A DNA stretch of 64,000 bases from Chryseobacterium sp. Its GTDB lineage: Bacteria; Bacteroidota; Bacteroidia; Flavobacteriales; Weeksellaceae. Under the pieces are notes generated by a model. The model did no database searches. It was given only the letters and a program-made list of their open reading frames with translations, and had not been told where the DNA came from. The translations under genes were made by a program, and so were the position numbers. Of this stretch, positions 50,942 through 61,137 are shown piece by piece; position 1 is the stretch's first letter; each line of letters begins with the position of its first letter. The DNA lies in contig NZ_VOXE01000003.1 in NCBI RefSeq assembly GCF_008014695.1, positions 186,001-250,000 on the forward strand. The letters are read 5' to 3'.

Positions 50942-51373
50942 TTAACAGAAGGAGATCTTCTCGACTCTGTTTTGGTGCCTTCCGCCTTCAAATTCCGTAG
51001 AAAGGAAAGCATCGACCATGTTTAAAGCCAGCTCTTCTGTAACAAATCTAGCGGGAACTGCCAACATATTGGCATTGTTATGCTTTCTGGCCAGTTCTGC
51101 CAATTCCACCTCCCAACAAAGGGCACAGCGGATTCCCTGATGCTTGTTGGCCGTGATCTGAACACCGTTTCCGCTTCCACAGATCAGGATACCGAATTCA
51201 TTTTCACCGTTTTCAACCGAAGTGGCCGCTGGGTGAACAAAATCGGGATAATCCACAGAATCCCTGGAAAATGTTCCGAAATCTTTTATTTCAAATTTTC
51301 CTTCAAGATGCTTTTTTATCAGTTCTTTATAATCGAAACCGGCATGATCACACGCAATTGCTAACTTTTTCAT
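50942..51373 (-). CDS. rpiB: Ribose-5-phosphate isomerase B
   Basis: Interconverts ribose-5-phosphate and ribulose-5-phosphate in the pentose phosphate pathway. The 143-residue protein has ACDHAGFDYKE (8-18), DFGTFSRDSVDYPDF, the active-site loop GILICGSGNGVQI, and NMLAVPARF. Typical length. It is the first gene of the long minus-strand unit, with a -7 box candidate 29 bases upstream at 51403-51410. A LacA-type sugar isomerase activity is the only alternative, and less likely. Confidence 0.95.
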   Translation of the reverse strand: MKKLAIACDHAGFDYKELIKKHLEGKFEIKDFGTFSRDSVDYPDFVHPAATSVENGENEFGILICGSGNGVQITANKHQGIRCALCWEVELAELARKHNNANMLAVPARFVTEELALNMVDAFLSTEFEGGRHQNRVEKISFC

Positions 51374-51402
51374 TGCTTTTAATATAGAATTTTCAATTCT
51401 TA

Positions 51403-51410
51403 CAAATTTA
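51403..51410 (-). promoter_or_regulatory. Candidate -7 box of rpiB
   Basis: On the minus strand this reads TAAATTTG (TAnnTTTG), 29 bases before the rpiB ATG. If the following genes form one operon, this would serve rpiB through tsaB. No -33 TTG was found. Confidence 0.4.
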
Positions 51411-51919
51411 ATACTATTAAAATAAATAGGGTAGGATTGCTGAGGAAATGTTGTAAATCATTCACCACAAGTGTAATTTGGTATACAATTGGCTGAAAGA
51501 TCAGAATTTGAAAAACTTGTGAAGATGACCTCTAAAACCTGTTGATAAGTTTACAAAAGAATTGCTTTTTTAATTCATATTTAATTCATATTGGAAATTG
51601 TTTTTGGATTTTCTTAGATTTATTTTCAGAAAGTTTCGGAACGAATAAGGACAGATTTTCCATAGTTAAGTTCCCAATACTGCGATCTTCAGGACTTACT
51701 GACAAATGTTGGTAAAGGAATTATACAGCTGAATTACAAACATTTGCAATGTTAATTAAATATGAACTCACCAGCTACTCGCTGTGGCTAAATAAAGAAG
51801 AATTATTTCTCAACAAAACCACACACTACAACAACAGTATTCATATTCTTTTATATAAAAAAAAGATAATGTAGATAAGATGAGGCTTTGTGGATTGTGG
51901 ATTTTAAAGTGAAATTAAA

Positions 51920-51950
51920 TTTCAAACAAAGTGAATTAATCTTAAATTTG
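51920..51950 (+). promoter_or_regulatory. Candidate promoter of pgk
   Basis: TTTC (51920-51923, one mismatch to TTTG) is separated by 19 bases from TAAATTTG (51943-51950), a full TAnnTTTG box. It lies 23 bases before the pgk ATG. The reading frame is open upstream to a GTG at 51950, but that falls on the -7 box, which supports the internal ATG at 51974. Confidence 0.5.
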
Positions 51951-51973
51951 TGCAACTAAAAAGACGACGAATA

Positions 51974-53164
51974 ATGAAAACAATCGAAGATTTTAATTTT
52001 AAGGACAAAAAGGCTTTAGTGCGTGTAGATTTTAATGTACCGCAAAGTGCAGACCTGAAGGTAACGGATAATTCCCGGATTCAGGCTGTAAAACCTACCA
52101 TTGAAAAAATCTTGAAAGACGGCGGTTCTGTGATTCTGATGACCCACCTCGGGAGACCGCAAGGGAAACATTTAGATGAATTTTCATTAAAAAATATAGT
52201 TCCTGAAATTGAGCAGGTTTTAGGAGCACCAGTAAAATTTTGTCCTGATTGTATGGGTGAAGATGCCACGAAAATGACTGGAAATCTGAAACCCGGAGAA
52301 ATCCTTCTTCTGGAAAACCTTAGATTTTACGAAGAAGAAGAGAAGGGAGACAGCCAATTTGCAGAAAAACTTGCAAAATATGCAGATGCTTATGTAAATG
52401 ACGCATTCGGAACTGCCCACCGTGAACATGCATCTACAGCAGTAATTGCCAAATATTTTCCATCAACTAAATTTTTCGGTTTACTGATGGCCAAGGAGCT
52501 TGAAGCCATCAATAAAGTTTTGGGAAGCGGAGAAAAACCAGTTACTGCGATTTTAGGAGGTTCTAAAGTTTCCACCAAAATTACCATTATTGAAAATATT
52601 TTACCGGCCGTTGACAACCTGATCATAGGCGGTGGGATGGCTTTTACGTTTATTAAAGCGCTTGGAGGAAAGATTGGTAAATCGCTTCTGGAAGAAGATA
52701 AAATGGGTCTTGCTCTTGAAATTATTGAAAAAGCGAAAGCCCAGAATGTTAAATTATATCTGCCGGTTGATGCCATTATCGCTGATGAATTCAGTAATGA
52801 TGCAGAAAGAAAAGAAGAGGAGATATACGATATTCCAGACGGATGGATGGGTATGGATGTAGGGAAGAAAACTCAGGAGCTTTTTAATGATGTAATTATG
52901 AATTCCAGAACAATCCTGTGGAACGGACCGGTAGGTGTTTTTGAAATGCCTAATTTCTCTGCCGGAACGATTGCATTGGGAGACAGTATTGCGGAAGCTA
53001 CCAAATTAGGTGCATTTTCGCTTGTTGGGGGAGGAGACAGCGTGGCATTTGTGAAACATTTTGGTTATGAAAACAAAGTAAGCTATGTTTCAACAGGAGG
53101 TGGTGCGATGCTAGAAAGTCTGGAAGGAAAAGAACTGCCTGGAATTGCAGCCATCAACAGCTAG
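51974..53164 (+). CDS. pgk: Phosphoglycerate kinase
   Basis: Glycolytic enzyme that makes ATP and 3-phosphoglycerate from 1,3-bisphosphoglycerate. The 396-residue length is standard. Seen are the substrate loop RVDFNVP (about 17-23), TPxIK-like [38 protein letters not shown], and the C-terminal nucleotide signature [10 protein letters not shown] plus [12 protein letters not shown]. The start is the ATG giving [20 protein letters not shown], chosen for the conserved N-terminus and promoter position. Monocistronic, with a strong terminator. Confidence 0.97.
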
Positions 53165-53338: not shown

Positions 53339-54157
53339 CTATTTTTTTTCGATAACATATATCAAACTGGAAAATTGACCGTTTTTTGATGCTTTAAAAT
53401 TAGAAATGGCTCCGTAAATGAATCCTTTTAACCAAAATAATGGTGATTTTCTGTATTTTTCACTCAGCATCGAAATATAAAAAGAGTCGAGCAGGAGGGG
53501 TTTGATTTTTTTAATTTTCCAGTTTTGATTGTTCATCAGATTTTCCATTCCTGTTCTGGAAAAGTGGAAGACATGCCTCGGAACATCATATGCTGCCCAG
53601 TACTCCCGGTATCTTTTTGCATCATCAGATGTGTGATTGGGAACCGCAATAATAAGCAAACCATTGGATTTCAGTTTATTATAAAATAAACTTAAGATAT
53701 CCTGCTGATTTTCAATATGTTCGAAAACATGCCAGAGCGTTATCGCATCTAAACTTCCATCCTGTACTGTTTCAAGACTGCTTAATAATTGGGTTTTTAT
53801 TAATTTTTTGGAAGCGAACACACGTGCTGACTCATTGGGTTCATATCCGTAAGTTTGGAAATCCTGTTCTACGAACTTCAGAAATTCTCCTGCCCCGCAT
53901 CCATAATCCAAAACCTTTGCGCCTATAGGCAGTTCTTTTGCAAGAATATTCCTCTTGTAATTGAGGTTAAAGCTTTGAAGAAATTTATACAGTTTTTCTT
54001 TGAAACTCCCTGAATCCTGATGATGGGAAATATAGTCTTTGCTTTCGTAATAAGCTGCCATATTTTCAGGCAGGGGAGAGGTTTTCAATACGTCATTGGT
54101 TTCCGTTTCTCTTATCTCAAATATTTCTCCGGTTAGGAAATGATCCTTAATTTTCAT
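53339..54157 (-). CDS. Class I SAM-dependent methyltransferase
   Basis: A 272-residue protein with a Rossmann SAM-binding motif I VLDYGCGAGEFLKF (about 88-101) and the post-motif DAITLWHVFEHIENQ (about 134-148), typical of Methyltransf_11/23-type enzymes on small molecules or lipids. The N-terminal block (KTSPLPENMAAYYESKDYISHHQ) occurs in members linked to surface-glycan pathways in Bacteroidota, but the substrate is not shown. It starts 18 bases beyond a parS site and follows mnmG on the same strand, so it may be the last gene of that unit. Confidence 0.87.
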   Translation of the reverse strand: MKIKDHFLTGEIFEIRETETNDVLKTSPLPENMAAYYESKDYISHHQDSGSFKEKLYKFLQSFNLNYKRNILAKELPIGAKVLDYGCGAGEFLKFVEQDFQTYGYEPNESARVFASKKLIKTQLLSSLETVQDGSLDAITLWHVFEHIENQQDILSLFYNKLKSNGLLIIAVPNHTSDDAKRYREYWAAYDVPRHVFHFSRTGMENLMNNQNWKIKKIKPLLLDSFYISMLSEKYRKSPLFWLKGFIYGAISNFKASKNGQFSSLIYVIEKK

Positions 54158-54174
54158 AATGATTAATTTTCGTA

Positions 54175-54190
54175 TGTTTCACGTGAAACA
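54175..54190. other. parS centromere site (downstream of mnmG)
   Basis: The perfect 16-bp palindrome TGTTTCACGTGAAACA matches the bacterial parS consensus (TGTTNCACGTGAAACA) bound by ParB. With one flanking base each side it is an 18-bp palindrome. It directly abuts the mnmG stop codon at 54191-54193, and lies 17 bases before the methyltransferase start. Confidence 0.93.
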
Positions 54191-56053
54191 TTAACGCCCT
54201 AAATAGATTAAAAGAACATTGATATCTGCTGGTGAAACACCGCTGATTCGGCCGGCCTGAGCAATGGTTTTGGGTTTAACTTTATTCAGCTTCTGTTTGG
54301 CTTCGGAGGATAGGGAATTGATGACCATATAATCAAACTCTTCCGGAATCTTTATGGTTTCCAGGCGGTTGAGTTTGGCCACATTTTCTTTCTCTTTTTC
54401 AATGTATCCCTTATACTTGATATTGATTTCTGCCTGCTCTTTTACTTCTTCTTCAAAAGTTGCAGAGATATCTTTAATAAAATCAATATTTTCCAGCACC
54501 TGAAGGGTCATATTGGGTCTTGTAAGGATTTGTGCTGCACGGAAAGCCTGATCAACAGGAGAAGAATCAATAGTTTCAAGGATTGGATTGATAATACCAG
54601 GTTTTAAAGAAGTATCCCGTAAGAAAGCCTCCAGTTCATTGCTCTTTTTGATTTTTTCCTGCACATTGATCAGACGTTTTTCGTCTGCTAAGCCTAATTG
54701 ATAGGCTTTTTCTGTCAAACGGATATCTGCATTGTCCTGCCTTAAAAGGAGTCTGTATTCAGCCCTTGAAGTAAACATACGGTACGGTTCTTCGGTTCCT
54801 TTTGTGATCAGATCATCAATCAGAACGCCGATATATGCTTCGTCTCGGTTCAGGATAAATTCTTCTTTTCCATGAACTTTATTGTGGGCGTTTATTCCGG
54901 CCATTAATCCCTGACCAGCAGCTTCCTCGTAGCCTGTTGTACCGTTGATCTGTCCGGCGAAATAAAGATTCTCAATCAGTTTTGTTTCAAGTGTATGGTT
55001 GAGTTGAGTAGGAGGGAAGTAATCATATTCAATCGCATATCCCGGGCGGAAGACCTTTACGTTTTCGAAACCTGGGATGTATTTCATCGCTTTTAGCTGA
55101 ATATCCTCGGGTAAAGAGGAACTGAATCCGTTTACGTAGATTTCTACAGTTCTCCAACCTTCCGGTTCTACAAATAACTGGTGACGGGTCCTTTCCGCGA
55201 AACGGTTGATTTTATCTTCAATACTCGGGCAGTATCTCGGTCCAATACTCTGAATGGTACCATTGAACATCGGACTTCTGTCAAATCCTTCGCGAAGAAT
55301 ATCATGTACCTGCTCATTGGTGTAAACGATATGGCAGCTTAGCTGTTTTGTAAGTTTCGGGGTATCGGTGTAAGAGAATTTTTGAGGATTTTCGTCCCCT
55401 TTCTGTTCTTCCATTTTGGAATAATCAAGAGACCTTCCGTCTACACGTGGTGGAGTACCGGTTTTCATCCGGCCTGCTTCGAAACCCAATGACACAAGCT
55501 GTTCGGTAATCCCAAAAGCTCGGGGTTCACCCATTCTACCGCCTCCAATCTGTTTGTCCCCAACGTGGATCAGCCCATTTAGAAATGTACCGTTAGTTAG
55601 TACAACCGATTTCGCTTTGATTTGAATGCCCAAAGAAGTGGTAACACCGCACGCCTGATTGTTTTCGATGATTAGACTTTTTACCATGTCTTGAAAAAAA
55701 TCAAGATTTGGAGTGTTTTCAAGAGCAATTCTCCATTCTTCAGAAAACATCATCCTGTCATTCTGTGTACGTGGGGACCACATTGCGGGTCCTTTAGAAA
55801 GATTCAGCATTTTAAACTGAATCGCAGATTTATCTGCAATAATACCGGAATAACCGCCCATTGCATCAATTTCACGCACAATCTGTCCTTTTGCAATACC
55901 ACCCATTGCAGGATTACAGGACATTTGTCCTATCGTCTGCATATTCATTGTTATCAGGAGTGTTTTTGATCCTAAATTGGCCGCAGCAGCTGCAGCTTCG
56001 CATCCTGCATGGCCTGCACCAACAACAATGACATCATATACTTCGTTTATCAT
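54191..56053 (-). CDS. mnmG: tRNA uridine-5-carboxymethylaminomethyl modification enzyme MnmG (GidA)
   Basis: FAD-dependent enzyme which, with MnmE, forms the (carboxymethyl)aminomethyl group on wobble uridine-34 of several tRNAs. The 620-residue protein has the FAD motif VIVVGAGHAGCEAAAAAANLG (about 9-29), MSCNPAMGGIAKGQIVREIDAMGG, GTFLNGLIHVG, GRMKTGTPPRVDG, and the late PYRMFTSRAEYRLLLRQDNAD. Historically gidA lies close to oriC in many bacteria. Here it is bracketed by two exact parS sites. No MnmE gene is present in the window. Confidence 0.97.
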   Translation of the reverse strand: MINEVYDVIVVGAGHAGCEAAAAAANLGSKTLLITMNMQTIGQMSCNPAMGGIAKGQIVREIDAMGGYSGIIADKSAIQFKMLNLSKGPAMWSPRTQNDRMMFSEEWRIALENTPNLDFFQDMVKSLIIENNQACGVTTSLGIQIKAKSVVLTNGTFLNGLIHVGDKQIGGGRMGEPRAFGITEQLVSLGFEAGRMKTGTPPRVDGRSLDYSKMEEQKGDENPQKFSYTDTPKLTKQLSCHIVYTNEQVHDILREGFDRSPMFNGTIQSIGPRYCPSIEDKINRFAERTRHQLFVEPEGWRTVEIYVNGFSSSLPEDIQLKAMKYIPGFENVKVFRPGYAIEYDYFPPTQLNHTLETKLIENLYFAGQINGTTGYEEAAGQGLMAGINAHNKVHGKEEFILNRDEAYIGVLIDDLITKGTEEPYRMFTSRAEYRLLLRQDNADIRLTEKAYQLGLADEKRLINVQEKIKKSNELEAFLRDTSLKPGIINPILETIDSSPVDQAFRAAQILTRPNMTLQVLENIDFIKDISATFEEEVKEQAEINIKYKGYIEKEKENVAKLNRLETIKIPEEFDYMVINSLSSEAKQKLNKVKPKTIAQAGRISGVSPADINVLLIYLGR

Positions 56054-56069
56054 CTCTTGAAATTAAATA

Positions 56070-56085
56070 TGTTTCACGTGAAACA
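56070..56085. other. parS centromere site (upstream of mnmG)
   Basis: A second exact TGTTTCACGTGAAACA, 16 bases before the mnmG ATG (56053) and 30 bases after the ybeY stop. It shares the extended context TATGTTTCACGTGAAACATTAA in part with the first site (the identical core plus two bases before and four after). It may overlap the promoter or leader of mnmG if mnmG is separately transcribed. Confidence 0.93.
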
Positions 56086-56115: not shown

Positions 56116-56526
56116 CTAAAGCCTCACACTTAAATAAAAATCTTCTTTTTTGCGCATTTCTGCTACCTCCAATTCTGATTTATCTTTATATCCGCACAAA
56201 TGCAAAAGCCCGTGAGCAAGTACTCTGTGAAGTTCTGAATCAAAATTTTTCTGATGGAGATCTGCATTTTCAGAAATGCGGGGCAAAGATACAAAAATAT
56301 CACCTGAAATTATTTTACCCTTTACATAGTCGAATGTAATGATGTCTGTGTAATAGTCGTGCTGAAGATAATCACGGTTTACCTGCAGGAGATATTCGTC
56401 ATCGCAGAAGATGTAGGTGATTTCACCGACTTTGCGATTTTCAGAAATGATCAGATTTTCCAGCCAATTAACGGTGGCGGAAGGGATCTTGACTTCGTTT
56501 ATATTTTCAAAGAAAAAATGTATCAT
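56116..56526 (-). CDS. ybeY: Endoribonuclease YbeY
   Basis: Metal-dependent endoribonuclease for 16S rRNA maturation and ribosome quality control. The 136-residue protein has the core AHGLLHLCGYKDKSE (104-118), which corresponds to the UPF0054 signature HGxLHLxGYDH. His105 and His109 are kept, but the third zinc ligand position holds Asp115 rather than His. I recall GYKDK in other Bacteroidota, so this may be the family's local form. It is one base after the patatin-like gene. Confidence 0.92.
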   Translation of the reverse strand: MIHFFFENINEVKIPSATVNWLENLIISENRKVGEITYIFCDDEYLLQVNRDYLQHDYYTDIITFDYVKGKIISGDIFVSLPRISENADLHQKNFDSELHRVLAHGLLHLCGYKDKSELEVAEMRKKEDFYLSVRL

Positions 56527-56527
56527 A

Positions 56528-58693
56528 TTAAAACCAATGTCCTAAAATTACACTGAAAACCCCATTATTTCTGTTTAATGAATGGCTGTAGTTAAGTTTG
56601 ATCTGCCCGAATGGTGATTTGTAGCCTGCTGTTAAACCAGCAGAGGATTCAGAAATATGGAAAATATCATCTACCTGTATGTCATTGAAAAGATTGGCCA
56701 AACTTACGGTGGCATCAAGGTAATAATTTTTATAAATTTTAAACTGGGCAGTATTAGAAGCAGTTAAGAGGTTCGATGAATCCAGTTGCCCAAACTCATA
56801 GCCTTCAAATTTAGTAAAATTGCCTAAATTTTGGTCGAAAATTCCGCCGATCCGATATTGGTAAAATTTATTGATGTCATTTCCAATGGTTAATCCGGCG
56901 AAAAGCCCAATCCTGTAAGTCAGCCATCCGGAAAGTGGAAAGTTGATCTGGGATGTAATTTTTGTCTGGAAAGTGCGGCCTTGCTGTTCGTCGCTAAGCA
57001 GATCGAGGATTTTTCCTTCTGCATTCAGAACAAATCCTCTTGTCGGAAAGCTTTTGTCATCCTGCGTATCACTTTTAATGAATACAAAAGGATTCAGAAA
57101 GTTTCTGGACCCGGAGAAGTCTGCATTGCCGCTTATTTTGGACTCAAAATAATCGTGATTGATTCCGCCGCCGATCGCAAATTTATCGCGCCATATGGAC
57201 TGTATAAAGGCTTCGTTGTGCAGCCAGTTCCAACTGTCATATACATTCGAATCAATATCCTTCAAATCAAGGGACATTCCGGAAGCATAGATTCCAAACC
57301 CGGGAATATAACCATTGTCAATAAAGTAATTGAAATAATACCGCGGCTTGTCACCCACAACAATGTCCAGTGAGACGGTAGAGTTTTTAAACAGCAGGCG
57401 TTTCGCAGTGGCATTCACCAGCAAACCTGTCTTGAATACTTCATCGTAATGAAGGCCGAATTTGACGAAAATTCGGGTGTCATCTTCAGTTACGTTTATT
57501 TTAAGGTAATTTTTATCGTTTTTCTGAATGATATCATAATTGATCAGTTTGTAATTATTCGTCGCATAAAGTTTATCAATCATTTTATTGATTCCTCCGT
57601 AAGTAAGGAGTGCGGGAAGTTTGAGGTTCATTTTTCCCGCGACATAGTTCTGTCCAAAAATTTCGTTGTTTTCCAGTACTAAACTGTCGATTTTATAAAC
57701 ATTCGAGTAAATGGAATTAATAGGAGCGCGAAGCAGATTTTCATCTTTTTTCGGAAGAAGCGAAAGTACCCGGGTGTACTTTTGTGCTTCTGCATAGCCG
57801 GAATCCAGAATGGCCTGCTTTGCATCATAACTTGTAGCGCTCATGCCCGTAAGATCAGGATGGATATTGATATCAGTGTATGCATACTGATTTTTGGTTT
57901 CTTTCTGAATTCCAAAATCAATGACCTGATTCAGTATATCAATGGCACTCTGTAAATTTGCGCGGTTTGCCAGACCCTGGCTTAAATCCACACCGATTAC
58001 AATGTCTATTCCTTTATCTTTGAGTGGTTTGGAAGGGTAGTTGATGGTCATCGCCCCGTCTATATATAAGGAATCTCCAATTTTAACCGGATCCATCAAT
58101 GAAGGGAATGCTGAACTGGCCATTATGGAACTTACCAAATCACCATTTTCGAAAACTTCCATTTTGCCGCTTTCCAGGTTGGTTGCAATGCACATAAACG
58201 GAATCGGTAATTTTGAGAAATCCTCTATTACGGAAACGTTTTTAAAGAGTTCCTTCAATAGATAAATGTTTTTCTGACCGGTTGAGATCGCTTTCGGCAA
58301 AAGATTGAACTTACCGTTCTTTACCGGAATGGTAAGAATATATTTATTAACAGATTTATTGAAAAAAGAGGTTTCCTGACGCGTTTTTTCATTCGCAATA
58401 ATGGTATAAAAGTCAGTGTCGATGACTATTTTTTCGATTTCTTTTCCGGTGTACCCGGAAGCATAAAGGCCGCCAACAATAGCTCCCATACTGGTTCCCG
58501 AAATATAATCCACCTTTACTCCCAATGAGTCAAGTACTTTCAAAACACCAATATGCGCAAAACCTTTGGCACCGCCACCGGAGAGTGATAATCCGATTTT
58601 AGGATTTTTAGGGATTACAAAGCCTTCTTTAATCTGAGCTTTTATCGAAAAACTCAGGAGAACAAGAAAGGTAAAGATGTAAAGTTTTTTCAT
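56528..58693 (-). CDS. Patatin-like phospholipase with C-terminal outer-membrane barrel domain
   Basis: A 721-residue exported protein with a signal peptide (about 1-19, SFSIKAQ). The patatin domain (about 32-320) has GLSLSGGGAKGFAHIGVL (oxyanion loop), the nucleophile GTSMGAIVGG (Ser68) and the Asp of YIDGAMTINYP (about 214). It is followed by a POTRA-like region and a BamA/surface-antigen-like beta-barrel (from about 420, ending VILGHWF). This layout resembles PlpD-type (type Vd) patatin secretion proteins, so the lipase domain probably lies at the periplasmic or surface side. The substrate is unknown. Its ATG shares one base with the murF-alr stop. Confidence 0.88.
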   Translation of the reverse strand: MKKLYIFTFLVLLSFSIKAQIKEGFVIPKNPKIGLSLSGGGAKGFAHIGVLKVLDSLGVKVDYISGTSMGAIVGGLYASGYTGKEIEKIVIDTDFYTIIANEKTRQETSFFNKSVNKYILTIPVKNGKFNLLPKAISTGQKNIYLLKELFKNVSVIEDFSKLPIPFMCIATNLESGKMEVFENGDLVSSIMASSAFPSLMDPVKIGDSLYIDGAMTINYPSKPLKDKGIDIVIGVDLSQGLANRANLQSAIDILNQVIDFGIQKETKNQYAYTDINIHPDLTGMSATSYDAKQAILDSGYAEAQKYTRVLSLLPKKDENLLRAPINSIYSNVYKIDSLVLENNEIFGQNYVAGKMNLKLPALLTYGGINKMIDKLYATNNYKLINYDIIQKNDKNYLKINVTEDDTRIFVKFGLHYDEVFKTGLLVNATAKRLLFKNSTVSLDIVVGDKPRYYFNYFIDNGYIPGFGIYASGMSLDLKDIDSNVYDSWNWLHNEAFIQSIWRDKFAIGGGINHDYFESKISGNADFSGSRNFLNPFVFIKSDTQDDKSFPTRGFVLNAEGKILDLLSDEQQGRTFQTKITSQINFPLSGWLTYRIGLFAGLTIGNDINKFYQYRIGGIFDQNLGNFTKFEGYEFGQLDSSNLLTASNTAQFKIYKNYYLDATVSLANLFNDIQVDDIFHISESSAGLTAGYKSPFGQIKLNYSHSLNRNNGVFSVILGHWF

Positions 58694-61137
58694 TAGTCTT
58701 TTATATAAATTCTTTTAACCCGGGATGAAATGGAAGTCAGGACTTCATAAGGAATGGTACCGCAATATCCGGAAAATTCCTCCAGGGTAGGGTTCGAATT
58801 GAAAATAATGACTTCGTCTCCCTCTCTGGCAGGATGGGTTCCAATATTAATCATCATCATATCCATACACACATTTCCGACAATAGGGAAAAGGGTTTTA
58901 TTGATGCCCACTTTACCCAATTCATTACCGATCAGCCGCGGGATTCCATCAGCATAACCAACGGGAATCGTTGCAATACAGGTGTCATTTTCAGCACGGT
59001 ATTTTCTGCTGTATCCTATAGAATCACCTTTTTTCACGGCTGAAATCTGCGAAATAACGGTTTTAAAACTTACCGCATTTTTCAGTTGCTTTTTGATTTT
59101 GGGATTAGCCGATATTCCTACCATTCCGATCCCGATTCTGACCATATCAAACTGACATTCGGGATAATTGACAATTCCCGAAGTATTCAGAATATGTCTT
59201 AAAGGATTGTAATTTAACCCTTTGCTTAATAATTCTGCACTTTTGCAAAAAATTTCAATCTGTTCAAAGGTATACTCTTTTTCTTCAGGTACATCAGAAG
59301 AAGAAAGATGACTGAAAACGGATTCCACTTTTACTTCCATCTTATTCAACTTTTGGATGAGTTCATCTAGGTCTTCTTCCTTAAAACCAAGCCTGTGCAT
59401 TCCGGTTTCCAGCTTGATGTGGATGGGATATTTCTTTTGGATTCCCTTCTGCCTCAGTTGATGATAAAACAGCTCCAGAACCCTGAAGCTGTATATTTCG
59501 GGCTCCAGATCGTAATCAATAATTGTATCGTAACTGTGCTGCTCCGGATTCATGACCATGATGGGGACCGTAATGCCTTTTTTTCGCAGATCAGCACCTT
59601 CATCCGCAAATGCGACACCAAGATAATCAATATGGTGGTGCTGTAGAAACTCAGCCATTTCATAACCTCCCAAGCCGTAGCTATTGGCTTTTACCATCGC
59701 CATCATCTTTGTTTCAGGCTTCAGAAGCGATTTATGCACATTGATGTTATGCAGAACCGCATTTAGATTCACTTCCAGAATGGTGTCGTGTTTCTGTAGT
59801 TCGAGATAATTTTTCACTTTTTCAATCTCAAACTTTCTTGCACCTTTCAGTAAAATAAGTTCGTTCTCTATTTGATCAAGTTGATGACTGTCAATAAGTT
59901 CAGAAGTGCTATTAAAAGTAAAGGTTTCAGCTTCAAAAAGGGATTCATATTGAACTATTTCTTCGCCAACCAGAAAAACTTTGCTGAAATGCTGCGCATT
60001 GGTGAGTTGAGCGACTCTAAGATAAAGGCTTTCGGAATCTTTTCCCTCAACAAAATCGGTAAGGACCAGAGACTGCCTCTTTTTCTTATATTCTTTAATA
60101 AACTGGAAAGCGATCTTTAACGAATCGAGATCCAGGTTGAAGGAATCGTTGATGAGGACATTGTTTCTCAATCCTGTGACGCTTTCAAGCCGCATTTCCA
60201 CTGGCCTTAGTGAACTTATTTTTTCTCTGATCTTCTCATTGTTTAACCCTAACTCTTTTAAAACAGCAATGATACAGAGCGCATTCGAAAGAGTCGCTTC
60301 ATCCCGCTGGTAGATGGGAAGTATAATTTCTTCACCAAAATATTTGAAAGAGATCTCTGACTTTTTATTTTTCAAGTCTGTGTTGAGATGAAGATCATTA
60401 CGGCTTTTGAAACCGTAGGATATTAATCTTTTGCTTGAAAACTCAACATTTATTCGATTAAAAACCAAGTCATTATCTCCATTAAAAATGATGGTGGTGC
60501 TGTTTCTGAAAAGGAGTATTTTATCCTCAATGAGTTCCTCTTCGGAACTAAAATTGGAAGCGTGTGCAGAACCGATATGCGTCAGGATTCCTATGTTGGG
60601 GGAAAATACTTCTTCCTGAAGTTTCATTTCGCCGGGTTTTGAAATTCCAACTTCAAAAATTCCAAGTTCGTGTTTTTCGTTGATTTCAAGTAATGACAGG
60701 GGAAGCCCGATCTGTGAATTGAAACTCTTCGGACTTTTAACCGTAGCAAACTCCCCAAAAAGACTCTGATACAGCCATTCTTTAACAATGGTTTTTCCGT
60801 TGCTTCCCGTTATGCCGATGGTTTGCAGGTTAAAACGGGTAAGATGGTATTTTGCAAGCTGTTTTAGGAATTGAATGGCGTCTCTAACAATAATCCATGT
60901 AATATCAGGTGTATCATGCAATTGATGTCGGGAAATGATGATTTTGATCCCTTTTTCAATGGCTGAATAAATGTATTTTTCACCTGAGTTTTTGGAAGTA
61001 TTGAGGGCCAGAAACGCAGTATCTGCGGATGAATAGATCGTACGGCTATCAAACGCAATGTTTTTTACGCAGATATTGCCGTCTCCAATTAATTGTGAAT
61101 CCGTAATTTCAGCAATTTCTCTGGTGGTATAGTTCAT
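58693..61137 (-). CDS. Bifunctional MurF ligase/alanine racemase fusion
   Basis: An 814-residue two-domain enzyme. The N-terminal half (about 1-450) is MurF, which adds D-Ala-D-Ala to UDP-MurNAc-tripeptide, with P-loop [10 protein letters not shown] at 111-120. The C-terminal half (about 453-814) is a PLP-dependent alanine racemase, with the PLP lysine K483 in [13 protein letters not shown] and the catalytic Tyr709 in [10 protein letters not shown]. Both active sites look intact. The fusion links formation of D-alanine to its use. Such murF-alr fusions are known in Bacteroidota. The start overlaps the end of tdk by four bases (ATGA). murF is absent from the division cluster at the left of the window. 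Confidence 0.96.

Follow-up and report, generated by a model that had tools for sequence, protein, structure and literature searches.

The two perfect palindromes that bracket mnmG in the window (the whole 64-kb stretch of DNA that was analysed) very probably constitute the whole parS centromere of the chromosome, close to the replication origin. This reading is based on the sequence of the sites, their copy number, a local GC-skew minimum beside them, their conservation and a ParB that carries parS-reading residues. The two sites and the gene between them are the following.

54175 to 54190, no strand assigned: parS site in the 3' flank of mnmG, exact TGTTTCACGTGAAACA
56070 to 56085, no strand assigned: parS site in the 5' flank of mnmG, exact TGTTTCACGTGAAACA
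54191 to 56053, minus strand: mnmG (gidA), tRNA U34 modification enzyme, between both sites (TIGR00136, 870.6 bits, cut-off 524.85)

The 3' site ends (54190) directly against the mnmG stop codon and the 5' site starts (56070) 16 bases before the mnmG ATG; the first-pass annotation had reported two exact 16-mers at these coordinates, one against the stop and the other 16 bases before the start, and had both coordinates and distances right. The 16-bp parS palindrome TGTTNCACGTGAAACA of chromosomal ParABS systems was found in the scans of both the window and the genome. No further TGTTTCACGTGAAACA match was observed in the 64-kb window at up to three mismatches, a laxness at which shuffles gave a mean of 0.49 matches and 7 of 100 shuffles reached two. 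In the genome (2,765,614 bases in 6 contigs, 99.98% complete) these two are the only exact copies, with approximately 0.0006 expected by chance (our own arithmetic, assuming equal base frequencies); there are no one-mismatch copies in the whole genome, and the two-mismatch matches are two, as with a reversed-pattern control. Sites scattered over the genome would have spoken against the earlier proposal, and both copies are at mnmG, none being present elsewhere even at one mismatch.

The sites are near the replication origin as located by GC skew only. In this genome, the cumulative GC-skew minimum is at contig position 237,414, 2.8 kb from the nearer site (240,175), within one 400-kb piece from one of the 6 contigs, in which the signal is weak. 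Local minima were also observed in the relatives G145 (2,075,877, with the site at 2,069,967; 5.9 kb, 400-kb piece), G066 (942,440, with the site at 949,317; 6.9 kb, 400-kb piece) and G065 (2,318,737, with the site at 2,312,908; 5.8 kb, 100-kb piece), so that a skew minimum is beside the site pair in all four genomes examined. A coarse skew, less exact since it was calculated from 20 samples of 18 kb per chromosome (one of them masked in G066), was lowest in G145 at 1.79 Mb, in G066 at 1.07 Mb and in G065 at 2.09 Mb, and the distances to the sites are 277 kb (7.4% of the chromosome), 119 kb (3.6%) and 218 kb (8.0%), respectively. Fine and coarse minima alike indicate an origin around the sites and far from dnaA. 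The first-pass annotation had called the region a probable origin-proximal segregation centre and had looked to the skew for confirmation; its proposal is supported by the copy number, the presence of ParAB and the local skew minimum, which the sites adjoin here and in G065, G145 and G066.

Within Weeksellaceae, an exact site was identified in 91 of 148 genomes (0/148 with the reversed control), with two copies in 66, one in 25, none in 57 and more than two in none. Frequent site variants fit TGTTYCACGTGRAACA, which was matched by 50 of the 57 genomes without an exact site (37 with two matches, 13 with one; none with the reversed control), and a one-mismatch search of the other seven together with the 25 single-copy genomes gave a match in 32/32 (reversed control: one match in 6/32), with three matches in four of them (G067, G086, G106 and G121). 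The pair is 1,885–1,952 bases apart, approximately the length of mnmG plus flanks, in 92 of the 97 genomes for which matches were listed in full and a partner was sought (32 of the 66, all 25, 33 of the 37 and all seven, the 13 genomes with one TGTTYCACGTGRAACA site being outside the weaker-partner search), a count made by distance and not by confirmation of the intervening gene genome by genome. The five exceptions are G042, with its sites on two contigs, G067, with a site 1,760 bases into its contig plus two weaker matches elsewhere, G021, whose two sites are separated by 816 bases, and the one-site genomes G011 and G012. Among 80 named loci, the best 80 of 569, picked by mnmG similarity alone and partly overlapping with the family genomes, 78 have a site (up to two mismatches) at both mnmG flanks, exact at both in 62; of the remaining two, L104 is truncated within mnmG and L110 (Crocinitomicaceae) carries two sites, both upstream of the gene.

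Ten of the 16 site positions are invariant over 157 sites (one of 158 was dropped for lack of flank). The A and T just outside the palindrome hardly vary (present in 152 and 150 of 157 sites), so that the working site may be 18 bases long, ATGTTTCACGTGAAACAT. Separately, we noticed an off-palindrome variant, TGTTTCCCGTGAAACA / TGTTTCACGGGAAACA, in some relatives (L101, G052, G002, G028, G021 and G086), which in L101 and G052 makes up both sites, in opposite orientations. We take this variant to resemble a hybrid, half parS and half Noc site (NBS motif).

At the order level, a site (up to two mismatches) is present in the mnmG flanks of 24 of 30 loci, four of which belong to Weeksellaceae; excluding these, 20 of 26 loci have a site, at both flanks in eight. 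A further 27 mnmG loci represent the class (a split-gene fragment, L308, was left out and one of the 30 class genomes had no mnmG match), and 20 of these have a site, at both flanks in three. Flanks were of up to 1,500 bases in both samples, with several loci ending at contig ends. These counts far exceed the approximately 0.004 sites per locus expected by chance, a value taken from the two stray two-mismatch matches in our genome, and for this reason mnmG is predicted to be a parS neighbour class-wide: putative parS sites beside mnmG extend across the class, and their two-sided bracket is a mark of Weeksellaceae, sporadic outside the family. Among the literature matches listed, parS bracketing of mnmG is not named in titles or abstract openings, and the parS survey of Livny et al. 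(2007) may mention it.

The proteins expected to act on these sites are encoded elsewhere. The genome has a single ParB-family match, on another contig than the parS pair, and a ParA-type gene adjoins parB, as in ParABS systems; the presence of a parB, on which the first-pass proposal depended, was thus verified, with a ParA-type neighbour in addition. For this neighbour, which has ParA/MinD-type matches, the best 25 of 30 are all below their cut-offs. The ParB contains the GERRFR motif and, in Caulobacter numbering, the equivalents of Q162, G170, K171, R173, N178, G201 and R204 (the register was set by the spacing of Q162, G170, K171, N178 and R204), with a glutamate replacing S172, a position that alignments show to vary among other ParB chains too; the Caulobacter ParB chain 6t1f matched it. 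R173 and G201 are described, in an excerpt, as absolutely conserved in extant ParBs (PMC7383237), and, since both equivalents are present, this ParB is expected to read parS. A Noc with Q173/R201, as in Noc/NBS nucleoid occlusion, was not found, the residues at those positions being R and G and the top NCBIfam match of ParB, TIGR04285, reaching 235.3 bits, below its cut-off of 315. The parA-parB pair is on another contig here and parB is 0.259–0.496 of the chromosome away from the parS sites in seven relatives, so that these genes are separated from the sites on which their products would act.

No Smc above cut-off was identified in the genome, the best TIGR02168 match having 20.8 bits for a cut-off of 567.35, and TIGR00281 gave no match for ScpB; in 14 control genomes these models were over their cut-offs in 10 and 9, respectively. 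A Smc above cut-off and a ScpB, which a ParB-Smc-ScpAB loading centre would include, were not found in this genome, the Smc matches having only about 20 bits.

We hypothesize that ParB dimers, from the parA-parB pair elsewhere in the genome, would bind and be loaded at both sites and, with CTP, form closed clamps that slide along mnmG and nearby DNA. Once the origin, located here by skew, has been copied, ParA would soon draw apart the ParB patches so formed. Such a system is a minimal form of the known ParABS, to which it adds the family-wide two-site bracket and an origin region parted from dnaA; the layout around mnmG is unusually fixed, and we consider it a solid instance of the known ParABS kind. 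A more specific reading, which we regard as doubtful, is that of a minimal family centromere with two loading sites across one gene, in which the pair would be the unit and ParB clamps would enter from both ends and fill mnmG; since Smc-ScpAB would be missing, segregation would then be achieved by ParA alone or with some other condensin.

The placement of the sites also raises the question, put forward in the first-pass annotation, of an effect on mnmG expression. The genes next to the two sites are the following.

53339 to 54157, minus strand: methyltransferase-like gene, kept neighbour on the 3' side (sub-cut-off matches only)
56116 to 56526, minus strand: ybeY, kept neighbour on the 5' side (profile match and locus comparison)

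Neighbours are kept among the 80 loci, the methyltransferase-like gene in 78, ybeY in 78, a patatin-like gene in 77 and pgk in 64 (many loci end before or within pgk). The patatin-like gene, ybeY, mnmG and the methyltransferase-like gene are on the same strand and probably form one operon. Elsewhere in the window (58693–61137), an 814-aa reading frame resembles, judged from its translation, MurF fused with an alanine racemase. A pattern scan called no promoter- or terminator-like pattern on either parS site, the promoter patterns being of sigma-70 type, a poor fit to the phylum Bacteroidota.

That the palindromes are operators for an mnmG regulator, or that bound ParB chiefly tunes mnmG expression, would agree with sites that closely adjoin a single gene on its 5' and 3' sides, an arrangement kept in 78 of 80 loci. 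An induction of comCDE, reportedly in Streptococcus pneumoniae, also speaks for this reading. There, comCDE, 5 kb off, was induced when ParB binding at one parS was blocked (PMC7022226, excerpt); in B. subtilis without Spo0J, on the contrary, the genes adjoining its sites were unchanged, and the known parS effects on nearby gene expression, as the same excerpt presents them, point both ways (PMC7022226). The sequence, moreover, corresponds to the parS consensus of bacteria in general (PMC7022226 and PMC10197239, excerpts), an operator 3' of a gene would be oddly placed, mnmG and the flanking patatin-like, ybeY and methyltransferase-like genes are co-stranded, probably as one operon, and outside Weeksellaceae the site is often at one side of mnmG only. 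On account of the consensus, the odd 3' site, the probable operon and the one-sided sites outside the family, we disfavour the regulator-operator reading and consider it very unlikely.

A true parS pair close to the origin, the reading that we prefer, has also to be reconciled with dnaA, which usually marks oriC in other bacteria and which the first-pass annotation had taken as an origin guide. This expectation failed: dnaA is on another contig than the parS pair in this genome and 0.243–0.451 of the chromosome away from the parS sites in seven relatives (six of them single contigs and G145 in two), and dnaA is no guide to the origin here. It might be argued that the pair is a true parS located away from the working origin, with replication beginning beside dnaA, and, in fact, the coarse skew minima miss the exact positions of the sites. 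Nevertheless, in the 3.77-Mb G145 dnaA starts at position 97 and the coarse and fine minima are at 1.79 and 2.08 Mb, and in the 3.29-Mb G066 dnaA starts at position 25 and these minima are at 1.07 and 0.94 Mb; a Hi-C study of 12 gut bacteria, in the excerpt cited, also describes the origin as not systematically located by dnaA (PMC10197239). An origin beside dnaA is thus very unlikely. The most likely start of replication is near pgk, and the rpiB/pgk gap is the first candidate for oriC.

50942 to 51373, minus strand: rpiB, on the opposite side of the candidate oriC (profile match)
51374 to 51973, no strand assigned: rpiB/pgk intergenic region, candidate oriC, 600 bp, 2.2 kb from the pair, with the skew minimum at 51414
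51540 to 51548, minus strand: DnaA-box-like TTATCAACA, 1 mismatch
51783 to 51791, minus strand: DnaA-box-like TTAGCCACA, 1 mismatch
51870 to 51878, minus strand: DnaA-box-like TTATCTACA, 1 mismatch
51974 to 53164, plus strand: pgk, neighbour of the candidate oriC (one match, below its cut-off)

Strict clusters (TTATMCACA, at least three within 600 bases) were found in none of three 400-kb pieces, and one-mismatch DnaA boxes were used after that. The comparison covered 22 pgk-upstream regions, our own and those of the 21 loci, among the 64 with a pgk match, that contain the pgk start and 400 bases or more beyond it. These regions have 59 boxes with up to one mismatch (shuffles: 5.1 ± 2.3); 11 of the 22 have an exact box (shuffles: 0.17), and one, L081, has no box at up to one mismatch. 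The density upstream of pgk is 4.5 boxes per kb, compared with 0.45 elsewhere in these loci. Our rpiB/pgk gap contains three one-mismatch boxes, a number that 0.3% of its shuffles reach, and no exact one. In G145, the region directly upstream of pgk ties for the top rank with one other place, rpiB being 2.3 kb farther; G065 has two boxes in the gap and one within rpiB; and the densest box clusters of G066 do not include the pgk-upstream region. Only our genome has its fine skew minimum inside the gap; in G145 and G065 the minimum is past the sites, approximately 10 kb from pgk, and G066 has it at a distance of 4.8 kb from pgk. Since our three boxes tie with three other clusters on the 400-kb piece and the minima of the relatives are 5–10 kb from pgk, we infer the exact oriC as a candidate only.

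The possibility that the palindromes are RNA hairpins, such as a terminator 3' of mnmG, is negligible: both can be folded (−7.4 and −6.0 kcal/mol; z −1.86 and −3.06), but the hairpin loop ACGT, expected to vary, is near-invariant (156, 157, 157 and 156 of 157 sites) and a terminator-like pattern was called at neither site, for which reasons we disfavour this reading, and the identical sequence also stands before mnmG.

If the parS reading is true, the pair provides an origin marker for Weeksellaceae, in which dnaA misleads, as well as a natural two-site centromere in a genome with no detected Smc above cut-off or ScpB. Because of this combination, it would be a good setting in which to study the role of one or two parS sites when Smc is not loaded.

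The B. subtilis ParABS has the same 16-bp palindrome class near the origin. In the excerpts cited, Spo0J binds approximately ten parS sequences (PMC7022226), one parS is within parB, in a 7.2-kb fragment extending as far as gidA (PMC4442127), and SMC is recruited to parS by ParB (PMC13342612); our genome, in contrast, has two sites and a parAB located on a different contig, and gave neither a Smc match above cut-off nor a ScpB match. In the 12 gut bacteria, two of them Bacteroidetes, parS clusters by the origin and no known condensin was found in these two, according to the excerpt (PMC10197239). Our genome resembles that set in having parS by the origin and the origin not by dnaA, and our Smc/ScpB result agrees with its two Bacteroidetes; the set differs in comprising other families, and mnmG bracketing is not mentioned in the excerpt (PMC10197239). 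The classical chromosomal gid-par neighbourhood, as an excerpt describes it, joins GidA, MnmE and GidB with ParB (PMC10653881). Here too mnmG/gidA partners a partition locus, although it is parS that is located at mnmG, with parA-parB elsewhere.
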